Source: Archaeoglobales archaeon (GTDB lineage Archaea; Halobacteriota; Archaeoglobi; Archaeoglobales; Archaeoglobaceae). From it: 64,000 nucleotides of DNA. Every line of letters starts with the position of its first letter. Position 1 is the stretch's first letter. Under the pieces are notes generated by a model. The model searched no databases. It was not told the DNA's origin and saw nothing but the letters and a program-made list of their open reading frames with translations. Position numbers and translations under genes: made by a program. The stretch lies in contig JASFYJ010000008.1 in assembly GCA_030055525.1 (NCBI GenBank), positions 1 to 64,000 on the forward strand. Reading direction: 5' to 3'. Below, piece by piece: positions 54,951-64,000 of this stretch.

Positions 54951-55946
54951 ATGATCCCTACAAATCCCGTAGATGTTAAAGATCGTAAGATCTCAGAATT
55001 ACTTAATGCCATGTCTAAAACTGGATTTCAGGGAAGAAAACTTGGTGAGGCTTTTAGAATATGGACAGAAATGCTGAAAGAGGAGGAAATTACAATTTTG
55101 ATGGGGCTAAGCGGAGCGATGGTACCAGCAGGTATGAGAAAGATACTGTCGTGGCTAATAAAAAACAGGTACGTAGATGTCCTCGTTTCAACGGGAGCGA
55201 ATATATTTCATGATATCCACGAAGCTTTAGGTTTCAAGCATTATCTTGGCAATGAAGCTGTGGATGATTATGCTCTATTCAAAGAGGGCATAGACAGAAT
55301 TTACGATGTTTTTGCGTTTGAAAAAGAGTTTAACCAGCTTGATTTCTTAATAGCAGATGTTTTCTCTAACTTTGAAGGAGTTCTATCTTCTAGGGAGTTT
55401 TTTGAAGAGTTAGCGAAGATTATCTCAAAGAAAGCAAAAGAAAAAGATTCTATACTGATCTCGGCTTACGAAAAAGGTGTTCCTATATTTTGCCCAGCAA
55501 TTGCAGATAGTTCCATTGGCATTGGAGGGGCGGTAGCAAAAAGAAGGCTAATAATCGACACCATTAAAGATGTTGAAGAGCTAACAGAGATAGTTGCAAA
55601 ATCCAAGAAAACAGGTGTAGTGTATATAGGCGGAGGAGTGCCCAAGAATTTCATACAACAGACAGAAATCGTAGCGAAGCTAAAAGGCTGGGAAGTTAAT
55701 GGTCACGAATACGCAATACAGATAACTACGGACAATCCACAATTTGGAGGGTTAAGTGGTTGCACGTTTGAGGAGGGTGTCAGCTGGGGAAAAATAAACT
55801 ACAACGCAAAGAAGGTCCAAGTCAATGTAGATGCCACAATAGCGTTGCCACTTTTATCTCACGGATTGTTGGATGTTAAAAGGATAAGCTACCCTATTTT
55901 TGAATGGAGAGATGGGCTGAGTATAAAATACACTCATAGCAACTAA
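54951..55946 (+). CDS. dys: Deoxyhypusine synthase
   Basis: Transfers the aminobutyl group of spermidine to a lysine of aIF5A. 331 residues. SGAMVPAGMRKILSWLIKN, ADSSIGIGGAV, GGGVPKNFIQQTEIVAKLKG and the catalytic-Lys stretch FEEGVSWGKINYNAKKVQVN are present. Monocistronic. Confidence 0.94.
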   Translation: MIPTNPVDVKDRKISELLNAMSKTGFQGRKLGEAFRIWTEMLKEEEITILMGLSGAMVPAGMRKILSWLIKNRYVDVLVSTGANIFHDIHEALGFKHYLGNEAVDDYALFKEGIDRIYDVFAFEKEFNQLDFLIADVFSNFEGVLSSREFFEELAKIISKKAKEKDSILISAYEKGVPIFCPAIADSSIGIGGAVAKRRLIIDTIKDVEELTEIVAKSKKTGVVYIGGGVPKNFIQQTEIVAKLKGWEVNGHEYAIQITTDNPQFGGLSGCTFEEGVSWGKINYNAKKVQVNVDATIALPLLSHGLLDVKRISYPIFEWRDGLSIKYTHSN

Positions 55947-56054: not shown

Positions 56055-57378
56055 ATGAGGGGAAAATTTCAAAATTAGCTGTTTTGACCTAGACAGATCC
56101 TTAAGAAATTTCATGCTTGAAGGGGCCTTTTCACAAGTAACTTACTCGCTAATTACGACAACAATCGTCAGCTCTTATCTTGCCATTCTTTCTGCTCCAA
56201 CAACCTTATTAGGACTAATCTTGGCGATCCCTAACCTTACGACTGTAATGCAAATCATCTTCGCAAATTATGTCGAGAGAAACAGCAGAAGGAGAATAGC
56301 AGTATTTGCGAGTTCCTTAGCAAAACTATCCATTATAGTGATGTTGCTCTCAACCTTCATCGATGCTTCTTCTGCAGTGATACTTTTTGCTTTGTCTTAT
56401 CTAGTTTTTAACATTTTTGAAGACGTTTTGACTGTAAGTTGGAGTTCTTGGACACAGGACATACTACATAAAGGAAAAAGAGGAGAGCTACTATCAAAAA
56501 GGCTATCATTTGGTAAAATGGTAGGCCTTCCAATTTTAGCCATACAGACGATCCTGTTCCACTTGCTCGGTGATAGGGCCTTTTCCTTATTATTTCTCAT
56601 GGCTTTTCTTTTTGGGGTTACCAGTGTTTATTTCCTACACTCTATGAACGACGTAAGATCCAGCAGAATTGGAGAAGGCAGTATACTTGAACCACTAAAA
56701 AACAGGAATTTTGTAATGTGGGTGTTATTAAACTCGATCTTCTGGTTTTCATTGAGCGCTTCGAGGGGCTTTTTCGCTTTATTCGTTCTGAATGTGCTAA
56801 ATTACTCACTTTGGTTCCTAATATATCTAACACTCGTAGCGCACGCGTCCACTATCTACTCTCTAAAGATTGCAGGAAAAATATCAGACTACTTTGGAAA
56901 CAAACCACTGTTTGCAATAATTATTATAACGTTCCTGCTGTCCATAATCATGTTTACTATCTCACCACTGGTTTTTCCAGCGTTGACCCTAACCTTAGCA
57001 TACGCTCTGCATGGCTTCTACACCTCTGCCCCAACCATCTCATTTATGAATGCTATAGCAGACATGACCTACAAAAAACATTCCTCTCAATTTTACGCCA
57101 TAGGAAACTGGATAGTAGATTCATTCTCAGCTGTAGGCTGCATAGTTGGTGGGATAATCTTGTACACAACTTCTAATCTAGGGATCAGTTCCTATCTTAT
57201 CCTATTTTCGTTATCATTTGTAGTTTCACTTTCTGCGCTAGTTCTCTTGAAATTCTACTTCGAGTTCGCTCAGCCTGTGTCAGCATCGATCTTCAGCTTA
57301 CCTAGAATAATTTACGAAGAAATCCAAATAAGAATAGATTTCAGAAAGGCAACTAGAACTACAGTAAAATCCAACTAG
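56055..57378 (+). CDS. MFS transporter with probable N-terminal frameshift
   Basis: The clean frame runs from ATG 56113 (421 residues; helices throughout, FANYVERNSRRRIAVFASSL as loop 2-3). Upstream of 56113 the same frame still encodes typical family residues (ISCFDLDRSLRNFMLEGAF) but has no start before a TGA at 56056. ATG 56055, right after the G-rich site, encodes MRGKF in another frame and would join if one T of AAA-TTT-C (56064-56070) were skipped (+1). So either a frameshift/sequence error or recoding. Transport substrate unknown. Confidence 0.7.
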
Positions 57379-57387
57379 TTTTATATT

Positions 57388-57864
57388 TTATTCTTTTAAT
57401 TTTAGGGTTATTTCAGCAACCTTCACAGTGTCGGGCTCCTCTATCTTTAATATCTCCCTTAAACTACGCTCGTCTAAATCCATTATTAGCTGCACTATGT
57501 TCTCAACAGCTACTCTAAACTGTTCTCTATATGCCTTTTTGTCTTTTTTAAGGTATGCAACGAGTGGGCAGATCTTCTCCAGCTTCAAATATATCTCCAA
57601 CATGTCTCCCTTTAAGTCAAATGTAAAAGGTCCAGCAACGCACGTTTCAGGTTTTATAGTGTGAATTGAGCATTTTCCGTTATCAAAAAAGATACAAAAA
57701 CCGTCTTCTTTGGATTTTGGATGCATATACTTCTCGAAAGCTATCTTTTCAATGTCTATTCCATTTTCGAGTAAAATCGCAAGTCTTCTCCTTGAAAGTG
57801 GAGGGTTTGCATCCTTGCAGCATTGTCCTCCACATTTTGAGCAGATTTCGATAAAATCGATCAT
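57388..57864 (-). CDS. YkgJ/UPF0153-type Fe-S or Zn cluster protein
   Basis: 158 residues. CSKCGGQCCKDANPPLSRRR near the N-terminus and CIFFDNGKCSIHTIKPETCV give the CxxCxxxCC...C pattern of the YkgJ family. GAGGTG precedes the ATG. Last gene of the amide-ligase cluster, four-base overlap with the GCS2-like gene. Could be a redox or modification partner. Confidence 0.85.
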   Translation of the reverse strand: MIDFIEICSKCGGQCCKDANPPLSRRRLAILLENGIDIEKIAFEKYMHPKSKEDGFCIFFDNGKCSIHTIKPETCVAGPFTFDLKGDMLEIYLKLEKICPLVAYLKKDKKAYREQFRVAVENIVQLIMDLDERSLREILKIEEPDTVKVAEITLKLKE

Positions 57865-58964
57865 CGAAACACCTCATTTTTTTCGAGACATTTTGATAAT
57901 TTTTCACACATTTTAATTATCTCTTCCTTCGAAAAATCTTTTAAATTTTCTAAGATTCTCTCACCCAAGCTGCCATGCTCTATTCTTTCACCCAAAACGC
58001 TTATATACTTCTTTTCCTCATCATCAGCGTTTTCATATGCTTTTTTAAGTAAATTCCTCAATTCCACCTTCATTTTCTTTGTTCCGTTAACCATCGCATC
58101 GTCCAACTTCTTTTTTAGCTCCAACTCGTTAATTTCATCTAAATTGGAATTTAGAATTGATTTTATAAAAGCTGAAATAGCTACATCACTTTTTATGCAT
58201 TCTTGCTCATCCATGGCTTTTATCTCGATGCAATTTCTAGTAAAGCGGAAGATAATTCCTCTCGAATTTACCCACTCATGGCATAGAACTTCAGCGTTCC
58301 TCGATTTCAATTCGGCGTAGATCTTTTCAAGTATGTACATGTATTCCTGAAGATTGCTAACTTTTTCAGGTATTACGTCGTTGCAAATTACGGGTATTTT
58401 TATTTGATTTATTCTATAAAAATAGATCCTCGAATCTACGTAAAACTTTCTACCTTCGCATATTGGTGAAGATGATGCTATCGCCACTAGGTATGGAAGC
58501 AGAACTCTTAGCTTATTGTGCATCTCTATCGCCTCTTTTTCATTTTTGAATGATAAATTCAACTGAAAACTCTGAATATTTAGCCAGCCGTGCTGTTTTA
58601 TATCGAAAAGCCTGTCGTACGCTTCGTAGATTTTTCTATCCCTATGATCCCATACGTAGGCGTTTTTAAGCTCGAGAAGAGGATGCATTCCTAATCCGAG
58701 GAGTTTATACCCATCCAAGTAACTCAGAAGTTCCTCAACGCCTTCTTGCATAACTTCTTCAAACTCTAAAAAACTAGTAAAAGGTTTGCTTGGCTTCAAC
58801 TCTATCACATGTTTCTGCAGTTCTTTTCCTACCACTACTCCCGAATTCTTAAGTTTTGCCTCATTAGCTATTCGACCTCGAATTTTCTTTATTATCTTAT
58901 CTGCAATCGGCTGTGGTTCGAAGTATTCGTTATTTATAGAAAACTCATGCTCCGGACCGATCAT
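57861..58964 (-). CDS. GCS2-like carboxylate-amine ligase
   Basis: 367 residues of the glutamate-cysteine ligase type 2 superfamily: MIGPEHEFSINNEYFEPQPI (metal/ATP acidic strand), GLGMHPLLELKNAYVWDHRD, QHGWLNIQSFQLNLSFKNEK, and SRIYFYRINQIKIP. In bacteria such ligases are found beside RLAN-RimK proteins and form amide-linked metabolites. Overlaps its downstream neighbour by four bases and is separated from the ATP-grasp gene by nine. Substrates unknown. Confidence 0.78.
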   Translation of the reverse strand: MIGPEHEFSINNEYFEPQPIADKIIKKIRGRIANEAKLKNSGVVVGKELQKHVIELKPSKPFTSFLEFEEVMQEGVEELLSYLDGYKLLGLGMHPLLELKNAYVWDHRDRKIYEAYDRLFDIKQHGWLNIQSFQLNLSFKNEKEAIEMHNKLRVLLPYLVAIASSSPICEGRKFYVDSRIYFYRINQIKIPVICNDVIPEKVSNLQEYMYILEKIYAELKSRNAEVLCHEWVNSRGIIFRFTRNCIEIKAMDEQECIKSDVAISAFIKSILNSNLDEINELELKKKLDDAMVNGTKKMKVELRNLLKKAYENADDEEKKYISVLGERIEHGSLGERILENLKDFSKEEIIKMCEKLSKCLEKNEVFR

Positions 58965-58973
58965 TTTCTCGCC

Positions 58974-59834
58974 TTAGCTAACAAGAGCCATTATTATCTT
59001 CTCGTATATATCTTTATCCTTAGCGTCCTCCATACCGTGCATTATAGTAGGATTGTCATTCACTTCTATCACAAAGAATTCATCCCCAACCTGCTTTATA
59101 TCTACTCCATAAAGACCGTTTCCAACACTTTTTGCAGCATTTACTGCAATTTTTTTCAGCTTAGAGGGTAAATTGTCTCTTTTGATAGCCTTTACATCTC
59201 CCCAAACGACCTTGTTATTCACAACATCTCGAATCTTCCAACCACCTTTTGGAAGCAGGTACTTGCATGCATAGATGACTTCCCCATTTAAAACCCCTAT
59301 ACGCCAATCGAAAGTTGATGGAATGTACTTCTGCAAGAGTATAGCCTTGTTTCTTCTCATAAACCTCTTTACTATCGCCAAAAGTTCCTCAAAGTTATTT
59401 GTCTTCTCAACAAAAAGTGAAAATCTCGAATTTGGAGCTTTAACTACAACAGGGTAGCCTATATCTTCTGCAATAGAGTTCAGTTTTTCAAAATCACCAT
59501 AGAAAGGAACTGTATAAGGTACAGGAATACCATTTTTAGTGAGCCGGTAGTAGAGGGCAACTTTATCCGAACAAATTCTAATGCTTTCCGAGTCATCTAT
59601 AACTTTCTTTCCTCTCTCCTCAGCCAATCTTGAAACGACGTAAGAAGTAAACAAGGGATCGGTTGTAGCTCTTATAAATACTGAGTCAAAGTCGTCGAGT
59701 CTATCTATTATTTCCTTACCGGTAACCTCAAAAGTGTGACCCAAGTTTTCTGCTGTTACTTCGAACAGCTTAAGCGCTTCAAATTCTTCCTTGTATTTGA
59801 AATTGTATGTTTCAACGTAGCAGCCGATCTTCAT
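58974..59834 (-). CDS. RimK-like ATP-grasp ligase
   Basis: 286 residues from ATG 59834 (MKIGCYVETYNFKYKEEFEA). ATP-grasp elements: YPVVVKAPNSRFSLFVEKTN (Lys), LLQKYIPSTFDWRIGVLNGE, and the Mg-binding EVNDNPTIMHGMEDAKD. Would ligate a carboxylate to an amine, as RimK glutamate ligases do. The ATP-grasp half of a usual RLAN-ATP-grasp fusion; the RLAN part is the overlapping upstream gene. Confidence 0.85.
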   Translation of the reverse strand: MKIGCYVETYNFKYKEEFEALKLFEVTAENLGHTFEVTGKEIIDRLDDFDSVFIRATTDPLFTSYVVSRLAEERGKKVIDDSESIRICSDKVALYYRLTKNGIPVPYTVPFYGDFEKLNSIAEDIGYPVVVKAPNSRFSLFVEKTNNFEELLAIVKRFMRRNKAILLQKYIPSTFDWRIGVLNGEVIYACKYLLPKGGWKIRDVVNNKVVWGDVKAIKRDNLPSKLKKIAVNAAKSVGNGLYGVDIKQVGDEFFVIEVNDNPTIMHGMEDAKDKDIYEKIIMALVS

Positions 59835-60474
59835 AGATAGCTTGAACAACCAACTCGATGTCGATTTCCTTTCTATTTAAAGGCATGAAGTAGAAAGGTC
59901 TGATTTTTCCATCTATACGCTCGATGAATATCTTACCAAGGGGAACACCAAATATCTCAAAGACCTTTCTTGCAATAACCTTCTCCTCCTCGCCTCCATT
60001 TTTTGCTCTATTTAGGTGCATGTAAACTTCATCAACTTTTCCCTCTACTTTTACATGGACAACTGGATAATGATAATCCATGCTTAAACTTTTGAAGTAC
60101 TTGTAATACTGCGAATCGTTTTTTACGACCTTCATTGAGTTCTTCGAAAATGGATTCAAGGGAAGCATTATCGTCTTTTCTGGAATTGGTCTTGGAATTA
60201 CCTCAAACTCTGGAACATCTAAACCAGCTTTTTTTAATCTTTCAATAAAAATTGGAGCCCTATAGATATCCAAAGCATTTTTGACACCTGGATAAACGAT
60301 GCAGTTGTTTTCTTCAGCGTGTAAAGAGACGTAATATCCCTTCGTATGAAACCTATAGTCACCAAGTAAATTTAAAACAGTGTCGCTAACCCGTTTTTTT
60401 AGAAAACTGTCTGGAGGTTCTAAACTCTTATCCTCATCACCTTCGGCTACGATTATCATACTCTTGTTTTTCAA
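59812..60474 (-). CDS. RLAN-like (RimK N-terminal) stand-alone protein
   Basis: 220 residues. LGDYRFHTKGYYVSLHAEEN, PIFIERLKKAGLDVPEFEVI, and KVFEIFGVPLGKIFIERIDG, then IRPFYFMPLNRKEIDIELVV resemble the RLAN domain normally fused in front of RimK-like ATP-grasp ligases. Here it is a separate gene overlapping the ligase gene by 23 bases, a split of the bacterial fusion. Probably substrate- or carrier-binding. Assignment by motif and context. Confidence 0.65.
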   Translation of the reverse strand: MKNKSMIIVAEGDEDKSLEPPDSFLKKRVSDTVLNLLGDYRFHTKGYYVSLHAEENNCIVYPGVKNALDIYRAPIFIERLKKAGLDVPEFEVIPRPIPEKTIMLPLNPFSKNSMKVVKNDSQYYKYFKSLSMDYHYPVVHVKVEGKVDEVYMHLNRAKNGGEEEKVIARKVFEIFGVPLGKIFIERIDGKIRPFYFMPLNRKEIDIELVVQAIYEDRLLR

Positions 60475-60548
60475 ATCCTCAGGAGTATATATGCTTTTCT
60501 GGTAGAGAAATTGTTTATAGAAGCCATGAAAAATAAAATTTCATTTTT

Positions 60549-61586
60549 TTATACGAAAGCCGTAAAAGAATTTAAAAACAAATCTCTCCTCTCTATTATC
60601 TTCTCTTTCCAATCGTACCCCGAAGCAAGCAATGAAACCACTGGTTCTCCTTTTTGATATCTACATCCTAGTTTAGGAACATCTGCAAAGAATGCATTAC
60701 CAAAAGGGCTCGCATTTATCTTTATATCGCAAGGAGCGAAAAGAATAGCTCTTGCTGCAAATCTTTTGTATTTAGGACGCTCTATTCTCTGATTTTCCAA
60801 AGATTTCATGTGCAACTCAAAAACGTTTACATCGCAGCACCATTCAACACTATCTAAGGAACCCTGAAAACGTGGATTGATTTCTAGAACGTATGGTTTA
60901 TCTGCAAGAACAAAATCGACACCAATTGAGCCTACTAGATCAAAAATCGCTACGGTTTCGATAGCTATCTTTTCCATTTCTTCTACAGCATTGTTTAAAA
61001 AGGGGGTTACATTTCCAGAGTATCTAAAACCCGAAGAGTAAACTTCCTTCCATCCCGAAAGTATCAAGTTTGAAGCAATCGGAACTATTTCTTTTCCTAC
61101 TATTAGAGATACCGAACATGGAATGCCTTCGATGTATCGCTGCAAAATAAAACCTTCCTTTTTAATATATGAAAACTCGATGTTTTCACCACCTCCACCA
61201 AATCTCGGTTTTAAAATGGCTTTTTCGTTTGTAGCATCACTTAAAAGCTCAGGATAAGGTATACCAGTATTTTCAAGTGTTTTGTAGAACTTAAGCTTGT
61301 CCACAATCCTCTCAACTTTTCTTGGTTCATTAGATATCAAATCAGCCTTTACTTTGAGAAGTTCACAGCCCGAACAAAGAGCTACCTTGGCGTTGTATTT
61401 CTGAGCAACATCATTTGCAATTTTTTCAGCATCTTTTTGTGAATTAAATAAAAAAACCTCATCACAGTAGAGTTCAAGGTCAGCGTCATCATACTTTGTT
61501 ACTGCAACAACCTTGTATCCTGCTTTTCTTGCAGATTCCGCAACGTTCCTTACGTTGTTACCGACGAGTACGATCTTTTCAGACAT
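60549..61586 (-). CDS. ATP-grasp carboligase, COG2232-like
   Basis: 345 residues. VLVGNNVRNVAESARKAGYK (Rossmann N-terminus), ILKPRFGGGGENIEFS, FILQRYIEGIPCSVSLIVGK, and YVLEINPRFQGSLDSVEWCC (metal ligands E, N). Related to the archaeal biotin carboxylase-like group and distantly to methanofuran-type glutamate ligases. The start overlaps cofE by 37 bases, so it is co-expressed with F420 synthesis. Product unknown. Confidence 0.8.
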   Translation of the reverse strand: MSEKIVLVGNNVRNVAESARKAGYKVVAVTKYDDADLELYCDEVFLFNSQKDAEKIANDVAQKYNAKVALCSGCELLKVKADLISNEPRKVERIVDKLKFYKTLENTGIPYPELLSDATNEKAILKPRFGGGGENIEFSYIKKEGFILQRYIEGIPCSVSLIVGKEIVPIASNLILSGWKEVYSSGFRYSGNVTPFLNNAVEEMEKIAIETVAIFDLVGSIGVDFVLADKPYVLEINPRFQGSLDSVEWCCDVNVFELHMKSLENQRIERPKYKRFAARAILFAPCDIKINASPFGNAFFADVPKLGCRYQKGEPVVSLLASGYDWKEKIIERRDLFLNSFTAFV

Positions 61587-62323
61587 CTCCTTATTACGTC
61601 CTCCTCTTCTTTCCTGAATATGTCCAATGCTCTCCCATTTCCGGATATATCCAGTCCTCTCACTATAACAGCTGGAATTCCATCTCCAGCCTCGCCCATT
61701 ATGATGTTAGCAGCTCCAGCTATCTCATCAGCAACACATTCTACAGTTACTTCAAGCTCTTTTCCATAAAGATCTTTTTCTCCTATCCAGCTTTTTAGGA
61801 CTTCTACCCCAGCACAGCCAACAGCTACACCAACAACACCTTTCCTGAAGCACCTTCCATTTGTATCAGTGATGATTACACCAACATCTTTCCCACTAAG
61901 CTCTTTTATTCTTCTTCTTATCCTTTCTGCACTCTCATCTGGATTTTTTGGCATAAGAACGACGTAACCCTCCTTTACGTTTGAGCCATCAACTCCGGCG
62001 TTTACACACACCGCTCCGTATTTTGCCTTAACAAGTAAAAAAGGATAATCTATCAGTATCTCTTCGCTTTCATCAAGAACTACCTGCACAAACTCCGGTT
62101 TTTTGCCAATTTTTTCAGCCAATTTTCTTGCTTTTTCAGTTACATTTACATTGCTGAGTTTTACAACTCTTCCTTCGGCCTTCGAGATGAAAGTTGAACT
62201 AATCACGAGGACATCTTTGTCTTTAATCTCTGTTTTCTCTAAAATCAGTTTCGCTATATCTTCTCCGCCCTCAACGATTGGTAGGCCTGTTACAGGTATC
62301 AACTCAACGCGAGAGCACCTCAT
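61550..62323 (-). CDS. cofE: Coenzyme F420-0:L-glutamate ligase
   Basis: Adds glutamates to F420-0 with GTP. 257 residues from ATG 62323 (MRCSRVELIPVTGLPIVEGG), preferred over an upstream Met that would overlap alaS. ADEIAGAANIIMGEAGDGIP, VGVIITDTNGRCFRKGVVG and FVQVVLDESEEILIDYPFLL are diagnostic. Followed by the ATP-grasp gene. Confidence 0.94.
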   Translation of the reverse strand: MRCSRVELIPVTGLPIVEGGEDIAKLILEKTEIKDKDVLVISSTFISKAEGRVVKLSNVNVTEKARKLAEKIGKKPEFVQVVLDESEEILIDYPFLLVKAKYGAVCVNAGVDGSNVKEGYVVLMPKNPDESAERIRRRIKELSGKDVGVIITDTNGRCFRKGVVGVAVGCAGVEVLKSWIGEKDLYGKELEVTVECVADEIAGAANIIMGEAGDGIPAVIVRGLDISGNGRALDIFRKEEEDVIRRCLKRSYSSVTT

Positions 62324-64000
62324 AGATGATCTTCCAGATCTCATCCTCAGATAAAAGCTTTTCCACTGCTCCCTGAGCTATATCTCTCTTACCACCACCA
62401 CTTCCCTTTGCAGCTCTACAGATGGCATTAAGGATATCTCTGGCATCGACGTTCGCACCACTAAAAGCCACTACATAAACTTTCCCTTCTCCTGAGGCCA
62501 TTATACATCCAACTGCTTTCTTGTTAACAAGTACTTCGGCAAGTTTGATCAGATCCTTCATGCTTCCATCTATGACTTTTGCTACAATTTTTGTTGAGTT
62601 GAAAGTTTCAGCATCTTTGAGCAGGTTTTCAGCCTTCAAGTTTGCTATCTCACTTTTCAATTTATCTATTTCTTTTTTCTGTTCTTTCCACTCTTCAAAG
62701 AACTTCTCTACCGTTTTTGGCAATTGCAAAGGTTCTACTCTAAGTACTTCGCTTGCTCTTTTAATTATTGCCTCCATTTCGGCAATAGCATCGATAGCTG
62801 CATCTCCAGCAGCGAATTCAAACCTAAGAACTCCATCTTGTATTGACTCAACTTTAAGTATCTTTATCAGTCCTATCTCTCCAGTCGAGCTGCAGTGCGT
62901 TCCACCACATGCTTGGACGTTTTCACCAACTTTCACTACCCTTATCACCTTTCCAGGCGGAACACCACCCTGGTAGAGTCTAAATCCAAATTTCTTTTCG
63001 GCTTCAATCCTGTCCATCCAAAAGGTTTCTATCTGTTTGTTTTCAAGTATAATTCTGTTTGCTAACCTTTCTACTTCTCTCACTTCATTTTCTTCGAGTT
63101 TCTTGTAGTGAGTTACATCCAATCTTGCCTTCTTTTCCTCCTTCTTAGCTCCAGCCTGCCATACTTGATTTCCGAACATTTTTTGTAAGGTGTGGAGTAG
63201 CACATGGGTTGCGGAATGATGTCTCATCAGTCTAAGCCTTCTCTCAGCATCGATATACCCTCTAACAGTTTTATCGATTGAATCTTTTAACTCCACACCA
63301 ACTCTATGCAGCACTACACCATCGACTTCTACAACTTCAAAAACTTCTATTTTTTTGCCATCGAGCATTAAGTATCCCAAATCGTTTTCCTGTCCACCGC
63401 TTTCAGGATAAAATGCGGTTTTGTCTAAGATAAGATATCCATTTTCGCAGCCAATTACCCTAGCTTCAAATTCAAACATCTTTGGATCTTCATGGTATAG
63501 CTTTTTAGTTGGTGGATACTTCCCAGAAAGCTTGACTTTCTTCTCCTCTTTCTTTTCAGCTTTGGAATGCTTCTTAGCAAGTTCAGAATAGAAATCTTGT
63601 GGTACTTCAACCTTGAAACCTTTCTGTTCAGCTATCTTTGCGGATAACTCAGCTGTAATGCCATGTGCATCGTATAGCTCTACAAGATCTTCTTTTGAAA
63701 GACCTTTCTTCTTTTCAAGTATCCTTTCTACGTACTTTATACCCTTACCGATTGTTGCTTCATACTTTTTCTTTTCAAGAGTGAGTATCTCCTCGATCGT
63801 CTCCATCGGAACTTCAAATGTGAATTTGAGTTTCTTGAAGTGCGCTTCAATTAGATCTGCAAGTTCTGCTGAAAGTTGAAGTTCTTCCGCTAATCTGAAA
63901 CTTCTCCTTATCATAAGCCTTGCAAGATACCCTCCTCCAGAATTCGAAGGTACAAGCCCGTCACCAAGCATGAAAAGTACGCATCTAGTATGGTCAGCAA
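62304..64000 (-). CDS. alaS: Alanyl-tRNA synthetase, C-terminal part (5' end outside window)
   Basis: The frame is still open at base 64000 (ADHTRCVLFMLGDGLVPSN read from the edge), so the N-terminal catalytic domain lies upstream. Editing-site motifs HHSATHVLLHTLQ and CGGTHCSSTGEIG are present, then a coiled coil (EEWKEQKKEIDKLKSEIANL) and the C-Ala domain with GKRDIAQGAVEKLL. Ends 20 bases into cofE. Confidence 0.96.
   Translation of the reverse strand, partial: ADHTRCVLFMLGDGLVPSNSGGGYLARLMIRRSFRLAEELQLSAELADLIEAHFKKLKFTFEVPMETIEEILTLEKKKYEATIGKGIKYVERILEKKKGLSKEDLVELYDAHGITAELSAKIAEQKGFKVEVPQDFYSELAKKHSKAEKKEEKKVKLSGKYPPTKKLYHEDPKMFEFEARVIGCENGYLILDKTAFYPESGGQENDLGYLMLDGKKIEVFEVVEVDGVVLHRVGVELKDSIDKTVRGYIDAERRLRLMRHHSATHVLLHTLQKMFGNQVWQAGAKKEEKKARLDVTHYKKLEENEVREVERLANRIILENKQIETFWMDRIEAEKKFGFRLYQGGVPPGKVIRVVKVGENVQACGGTHCSSTGEIGLIKILKVESIQDGVLRFEFAAGDAAIDAIAEMEAIIKRASEVLRVEPLQLPKTVEKFFEEWKEQKKEIDKLKSEIANLKAENLLKDAETFNSTKIVAKVIDGSMKDLIKLAEVLVNKKAVGCIMASGEGKVYVVAFSGANVDARDILNAICRAAKGSGGGKRDIAQGAVEKLLSEDEIWKIIYEVLSR

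Follow-up and report, generated by a model that had tools for sequence, protein, structure and literature searches.

A cluster of four genes on the minus strand of a contig from an Archaeoglobales archaeon (JASFYJ010000008.1, assembly GCA_030055525.1; genome size 1.56 Mb) encodes an RLAN protein, a RimK-type ATP-grasp ligase, a GCS2-family carboxylate-amine ligase and a cysteine-rich protein of the YkgJ family. The window, that is, the whole stretch of DNA analysed, comprises the first 64,000 nucleotides of this contig. The four genes form a module which recurs in several archaeal lineages and is genetically linked to genes of polyamine metabolism, among them a paralogue of deoxyhypusine synthase (DHS), here termed DHS-A. 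The reading preferred here, to which a probability of roughly 0.4 is given, is that a glutamyl-type amide is built, by two ligations that consume ATP, on a small molecule derived from a polyamine, the kind of substrate being suggested by the gene context.

As far as the present searches go, the broadly distributed archaeal module of four genes, YkgJ included, the occurrence of RLAN and RimK as separate subunits as the archaeal norm, the predicted kinship of RLAN with ATP-grasp enzymes and the polyamine linkage are new. A module kept across several archaeal lineages marks a gap in the known metabolism of archaea, and the polyamine link narrows a generic amidoligase to a small set of testable substrates.

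Composition of the gene cluster

The initial annotation of the window, made from its sequence, had described four tightly packed minus-strand open reading frames (ORFs) and named their products; both the arrangement and the names hold. All four proteins score above the curated Pfam cut-offs (in brackets): RLAN reaches 45.4 bits with PF14401 (25), RimK 54 bits with PF08443 (21), GCS2 170 bits with PF04107 (21) and YkgJ 44.4 bits with PF03692 (23). Profile searches, on which the annotation had let the RLAN and GCS2 homologies stand or fall, uphold both. Judged by conservation in alignments with relatives, RLAN and RimK probably begin at the ATG codons at 60459 and 59834 and not at the TTG codons at 60474 and 59849. 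With these starts, RLAN and RimK overlap by 23 nucleotides (nt) and a gap of 9 nt separates RimK from GCS2, while GCS2 and YkgJ share a 4-nt ATGA overlap (coordinates in Table 1).

Distribution and co-conservation in archaea

The search for co-conservation in archaea that the annotation had proposed gave a positive answer. Among 55 Archaeoglobaceae genomes, 11 carry RLAN together with the GCS2 subfamily, 43 carry neither and one (73% complete) GCS2 only, a coincidence which, in counts that ignore kinship, is far beyond chance. YkgJ orthologues are distributed as RLAN is, and 11 Archaeoglobaceae genomes possess all three.

The four genes recur in the Archaeoglobaceae, in three other Halobacteriota families, in Bathyarchaeota and in a Njordarchaeum, with a shuffled order and a stable membership, which argues for a shared function rather than inherited synteny. 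The module of the Njordarchaeum is collinear, as in the window; the Bathyarchaeota loci mostly have GCS2-YkgJ divergent from RLAN-RimK; and in four genomes (G001, G004, G007 and G008) GCS2 has been relocated beside a CitMHS-type permease, with YkgJ still convergent with RimK. In G001, GCS2 (as two ORFs) and RimK are both interrupted (L157:5991-7143, L029:6995-7852), which could reflect sequencing error or decay of the module.

A wider genome scan for RLAN brought in, besides many Bathyarchaeota, a Njordarchaeum, one planctomycete and a Methanocella contig. Six of the eight Bathyarchaeota without GCS2 on the RLAN contig have it elsewhere, adjacent to YkgJ. Furthermore, in a sample of 121 Bathyarchaeia strong GCS2 matches were found in 11, including all 6 with RLAN (one marginal match excluded). 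An alignment-based search detected RLAN in 57 of 393 Halobacteriota genomes, belonging to 21 of 136 genera. Eighteen Halobacteriota loci were read: in families f13, f21 and f23 most show one uninterrupted RLAN-RimK-YkgJ-GCS2 operon, whose flanks are for the most part unrelated; at the loci read from family f36, RLAN-RimK stands alone. The Pfam RLAN family is under-counted in archaea: in G070 the Pfam model misses RLAN, yet the operon is present. The diverged RLAN proteins of G070 and of f13, f21 and f23 were found only with a purpose-built alignment.

Split and fused forms of RLAN-RimK

RLAN and RimK are separate ORFs in every archaeal locus read, and on this ground a frameshift artefact was rejected as the origin of the split. 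Separate genes are the rule in archaea, and a planctomycete has them as well, with a GNAT-like ORF in between. The statement in the annotation that RLAN and the ligase are separate here, with a metal-cluster protein added, is right as to the split and the addition of YkgJ, but the split is no peculiarity of this genome.

Iyer et al. in 2009 reportedly predicted bacterial amidoligase systems consisting of an RLAN-RimK fusion and GCS2. Such a neighbourhood, also claimed in the annotation, is seen on the Legionella adelaidensis plasmid NZ_LR134436, where a fusion of 424 residues is followed by GCS2 (32% identical to that of the window) and by an N-formylglutamate amidohydrolase. Further fusions, of 529 and 493 residues, are carried by plasmids of Pseudomonas aeruginosa and Azospirillum, the latter after a GNAT/peptidase-like ORF (domains read by eye); a plasmid search with the planctomycete RLAN as query gave zero matches. 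The bacterial system resembles that of the window in bringing RLAN, RimK and GCS2 together, in Legionella likewise as one overlapping operon. It differs in having one fused protein in the place of separate overlapping ORFs and, at the Legionella locus, in the third gene, which is the amidohydrolase and not YkgJ; no DHS or polyamine genes were seen there, unlike in the window. The two genes are fused in some lineages and overlapping in others, which suggests that RLAN and RimK form a stoichiometric complex.

Linkage to polyamine genes

The window genome has two DHS genes. The copy in the window matches NF002006 with 514 bits (cut-off 434), retains the active-site lysine (WGK) and falls, in a DHS tree, in a DHS-A clade together with the additional DHS copies of other genomes that carry the module; this clade includes module-adjacent copies of Bathyarchaeota and, as a long branch at its base, the copy of the Njordarchaeum. 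In a set of 60 genomes, 12 of the 14 with RLAN and/or GCS2 and 5 of the 46 with neither were found to have DHS-A (p 3e-7 in a Fisher test that ignores kinship). The contrast is repeated within genera: G019 has both the module and DHS-A and G029 neither, and in another genus G040 has both and G013, G024 and G033 neither.

The neighbourhoods point the same way. In most module-bearing Archaeoglobi, DHS-A adjoins a pyruvoyl arginine decarboxylase (PvlArgDC), and in G040 a gene of PvlArgDC size lies beside DHS-A, divergent from RLAN. Five Bathyarchaeota have exactly two DHS genes each, both on the RimK locus. In Bathyarchaeia with GCS2 only, this gene stands beside a protein with a HELTH motif; in several of them PvlArgDC is beside GCS2 as well, and in some an agmatinase, a DHS-A-like gene or an S-adenosylmethionine decarboxylase is near GCS2. 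Moreover, MFS or CitMHS permeases recur next to GCS2, RimK or DHS-A, and the MFS transporter of the window has relatives close to the module (L021, L024) and close to DHS-A (L167). Taken together, the module is genetically linked to polyamine genes.

As separate observations, about a dozen Bathyarchaeota (L051:12708-15596 and kin) have a DHS pair downstream of RimK, after which an arginyl-tRNA synthetase and a gene resembling HDAC/acetylpolyamine amidohydrolases were recognised by eye. The HELTH-motif protein (L259:4689-5210 and kin) is conserved, has about 170 residues, gave no Pfam match and is a possible metallopeptidase.

Several facts weigh against a polyamine product. Apart from the disregard of kinship in the Fisher test, the DHS link came up post hoc, after the neighbours had been inspected; G002 and G006 have the module, with no DHS-A found, and five non-module genomes carry DHS-A; Methanocella carries RLAN-RimK but no orthologues of GCS2 or YkgJ; and at the f13, f21 and f23 loci the operon stands alone, with no polyamine genes nearby. 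These lone operons, as well as the N-formylglutamate amidohydrolase found in the Legionella operon where polyamine genes are not, would suit a module making an unrelated peptide-like metabolite, as predicted for the bacterial RLAN-RimK/GCS2 loci, with an incidental linkage to polyamine genes. This is considered unlikely, given that the DHS association appears in Archaeoglobi, Bathyarchaeota and Njordarchaeum and that a lone GCS2 accompanies polyamine genes in other Bathyarchaeia.

A modification of the translation apparatus has also been weighed. RimK is named for the glutamylation of ribosomal protein S6, and RLAN-RimK might attach amino acids either to a ribosomal protein or to aIF5A bearing (deoxy)hypusine, a target that DHS would share; both DHS genes adjoin RimK in the five Bathyarchaeota mentioned, and the Methanocella RLAN-RimK pair lies beside a ribosomal-protein/IF6 gene cluster (by eye). 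We hold this to be improbable, as the module is patchy within families whereas aIF5A and DHS are general, GCS2 and the permeases suit small molecules better, and the aIF5A of module-bearing genomes looks ordinary, with no differences seen. A PF01287 search reached 16 of 45 genomes only and was hence unfit for presence/absence. Among the Methanocella relatives, L016 and L018 have RLAN-RimK beside the ribosomal-protein/IF6 cluster and L017 has it on the same strand, farther away, which may represent a translation link or family synteny.

The RimK and GCS2 ligases

RimK and GCS2 are probably active ligases; both have kept the catalytic residues typical of their families, and ligase chemistry as such is well supported by family membership, as a prediction from sequence. 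In RimK, alignment with relatives showed D245, E257 and N259, together with R178, to be invariant; in GCS2 the conserved acidic residues are E5, E7, E55 and E247, whose roles we take from general knowledge of the family.

RimK shares with the RimK, LysX/ArgX, MptN and CofF family the fold and the metal-binding D/E/N triad, and its nearest sequence in the PDB is ArgX (3vpb). It differs in scoring below the cut-offs of the RimK, LysX, MptN and CofF models (best sub-family score 88.9 bits with TIGR00768, cut-off 143.4), in presumably acting beside RLAN and in that no LysW-type carrier protein was recognised here. GCS2 has the family domain and the conserved acidic residues of glutamate-cysteine ligases and YbdK-type carboxylate-amine ligases, but constitutes a distinct archaeal subfamily in a polyamine or RLAN-RimK context, far under the cut-offs of all characterised GCS2 models, those of glutamate-cysteine ligases included (best score 33.7 bits with TIGR02050, cut-off 176.4). 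No functional account of RLAN/GCS2 or of YkgJ turned up in a literature search.

Glutathione synthesis combines a glutamate-cysteine ligase with an ATP-grasp ligase, and GCS2 belongs to the glutamate-cysteine ligase family; since YkgJ is, moreover, cysteine-rich, GCS2 could be imagined to make gamma-glutamyl-cysteine and RLAN-RimK to add the next residue of a thiol or glutathione-like peptide. Such a product is quite improbable in view of the distance of GCS2 from every characterised glutamate-cysteine ligase model, of neighbourhoods in which no thiol-specific genes were recognised and whose context favours polyamines, and of a literature search on thiols that yielded nothing on point. A role in tailoring the poly-glutamate tail of F420, methanopterin or methanofuran, to which sub-threshold matches of RimK to the MptN and CofF models and the position of CofE, which lies a short way upstream in the window and close to the module in several Bathyarchaeota, could point, is very improbable, as no CofE relative is labelled near the module in other Archaeoglobi, the module is missing from most Archaeoglobaceae, and RLAN-RimK also occurs in proteobacteria and a planctomycete.

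RLAN as a predicted degenerate ATP-grasp protein

The prediction for RLAN is a degenerate ATP-grasp fold that shares its ancestry with RimK but lacks the metal ligands of that enzyme. The AlphaFold2 model, built with 30 archaeal sequences, has a mean local confidence (pLDDT) of 87 and a predicted template-modelling score (pTM) of 0.84, and Foldseek found 380 matches to it in the PDB at E <= 0.001. All 50 among the matches listed are enzymes of ATP-grasp fold, with PsnB at the top and ArgX/LysX, RimK, D-Ala-D-Ala ligases and PPIP5K2 among the rest, at TM-scores of 0.51-0.66 by query length. In addition, hhalign, which does not depend on the model, aligned RLAN residues 38-136 with RimK (probability 92%, E 5.6e-7), with 0.5% in the controls against GCS2 and YkgJ. 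For the C-terminal halves of RLAN and RimK, sequence methods give no reliable alignment; matching that half by secondary structure and by eye, RLAN has no counterparts of D245, E257 and N259 of RimK. From this predicted loss of the metal ligands and the homology with ATP-grasp enzymes, RLAN and RimK are probably a pseudoenzyme/enzyme pair. If RLAN is indeed a dead ATP-grasp protein, PF14401 would acquire a structural identity and, probably, the role of an obligate subunit, which would bear on the bacterial RLAN-RimK fusions too.

The top match to PsnB had prompted a graspetide-like reading with a precursor peptide, which was dropped, the matches spanning ATP-grasp enzymes generally. A sequence search of the PDB gave no meaningful relatives of RLAN, YkgJ or GCS2.

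Proposed function

In the preferred reading, a glutamyl-type amide on a polyamine-derived molecule, the catalytically dead RLAN and RimK would work as an obligate complex, which would activate a carboxylate with ATP and join it to an amine, most probably the amino group of glutamate. GCS2 would form a second ATP-dependent amide bond, presumably in that order. DHS-A, often beside the arginine decarboxylase that makes agmatine, may supply or elaborate the polyamine, the likely acceptor to which GCS2 and RLAN-RimK would attach amino-acid amides, while YkgJ, probably a metal or Fe-S protein sensitive to oxygen, would work on the common product or complex, and permeases of MFS or CitMHS type might carry substrate or product.

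The annotation had guessed at a thiol, peptide or protein tag as product. A thiol or a protein tag is a less probable product, with no specific evidence found in favour of the guess; no cysteine-, thiol- or carrier-specific gene was recognised near the module, and the context points to polyamine metabolism instead. In the synthesis of glutathionylspermidine and trypanothione, amide ligases join a glutamyl peptide to a polyamine. By analogy, RLAN-RimK, GCS2, an Fe-S YkgJ and a repurposed deoxyhypusine synthase might form an archaeal pathway to a new amino-acid-polyamine conjugate, a counterpart of the glutathionylspermidine type; this bolder version is rather unlikely. The likeness is one of idea only: the enzymes differ, and no evidence of cysteine or glutathione came up for the archaeal module.

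The YkgJ protein

YkgJ, presumed from its sequence to be an Fe-S or Zn protein, has 8 invariant cysteines and 1 invariant histidine across 25 sequences, and a confident structure model gave zero matches in a PDB fold search. A lead comes by resemblance from FliB, a [4Fe-4S] flagellin lysine methyltransferase whose cysteine-rich N-terminal motif, likened to PF03692, binds the [4Fe-4S] cluster (PMC8598068). Both proteins have 8 conserved cysteines, highly conserved in FliB; YkgJ, with 158 residues, has CX2CX3CC, whereas FliB has CX4CX3CC (PMC8598068).

Neighbouring features

Table 1. Position of the module genes and associated features in the window
Feature	Position	Strand	Size	Remarks
RLAN subunit	59812..60459	-	215 aa from ATG 60459	longer TTG start 60474; PF14401, AlphaFold2 fold, RimK profile match
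RimK-type ATP-grasp ligase	58974..59834	-	286 aa from ATG 59834	PF08443; presumed catalytic partner of RLAN
GCS2-family carboxylate-amine ligase	57861..58964	-	367 aa	PF04107; uncharacterised subfamily
YkgJ/CxxCxxCC cysteine-rich protein	57388..57864	-	158 aa	PF03692; presumed Fe-S or Zn protein
Putative archaeal TATA element AAAAGCATATATACT	60480..60500, approximate	-		upstream of RLAN, read by eye
DHS-A, deoxyhypusine-synthase paralogue	54951..55946	+		NF002006; associated gene, outside operon
MFS transporter between DHS-A and YkgJ	56113..57378	+		PF07690, 64 bits; possible associated exporter or importer

An ATP-grasp_3 gene and CofE (60549-62344) lie immediately upstream of RLAN and share its strand. 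The former (60549-61586) was rejected as a member of the module, none of its relatives occurring near the module in L016-L029; it is weakly similar to the tyramine-glutamate ligase MfnD. In addition, the one small conserved neighbour examined, a protein of 83 residues present near the module in three loci, resembles by eye a helix-turn-helix-type regulator.

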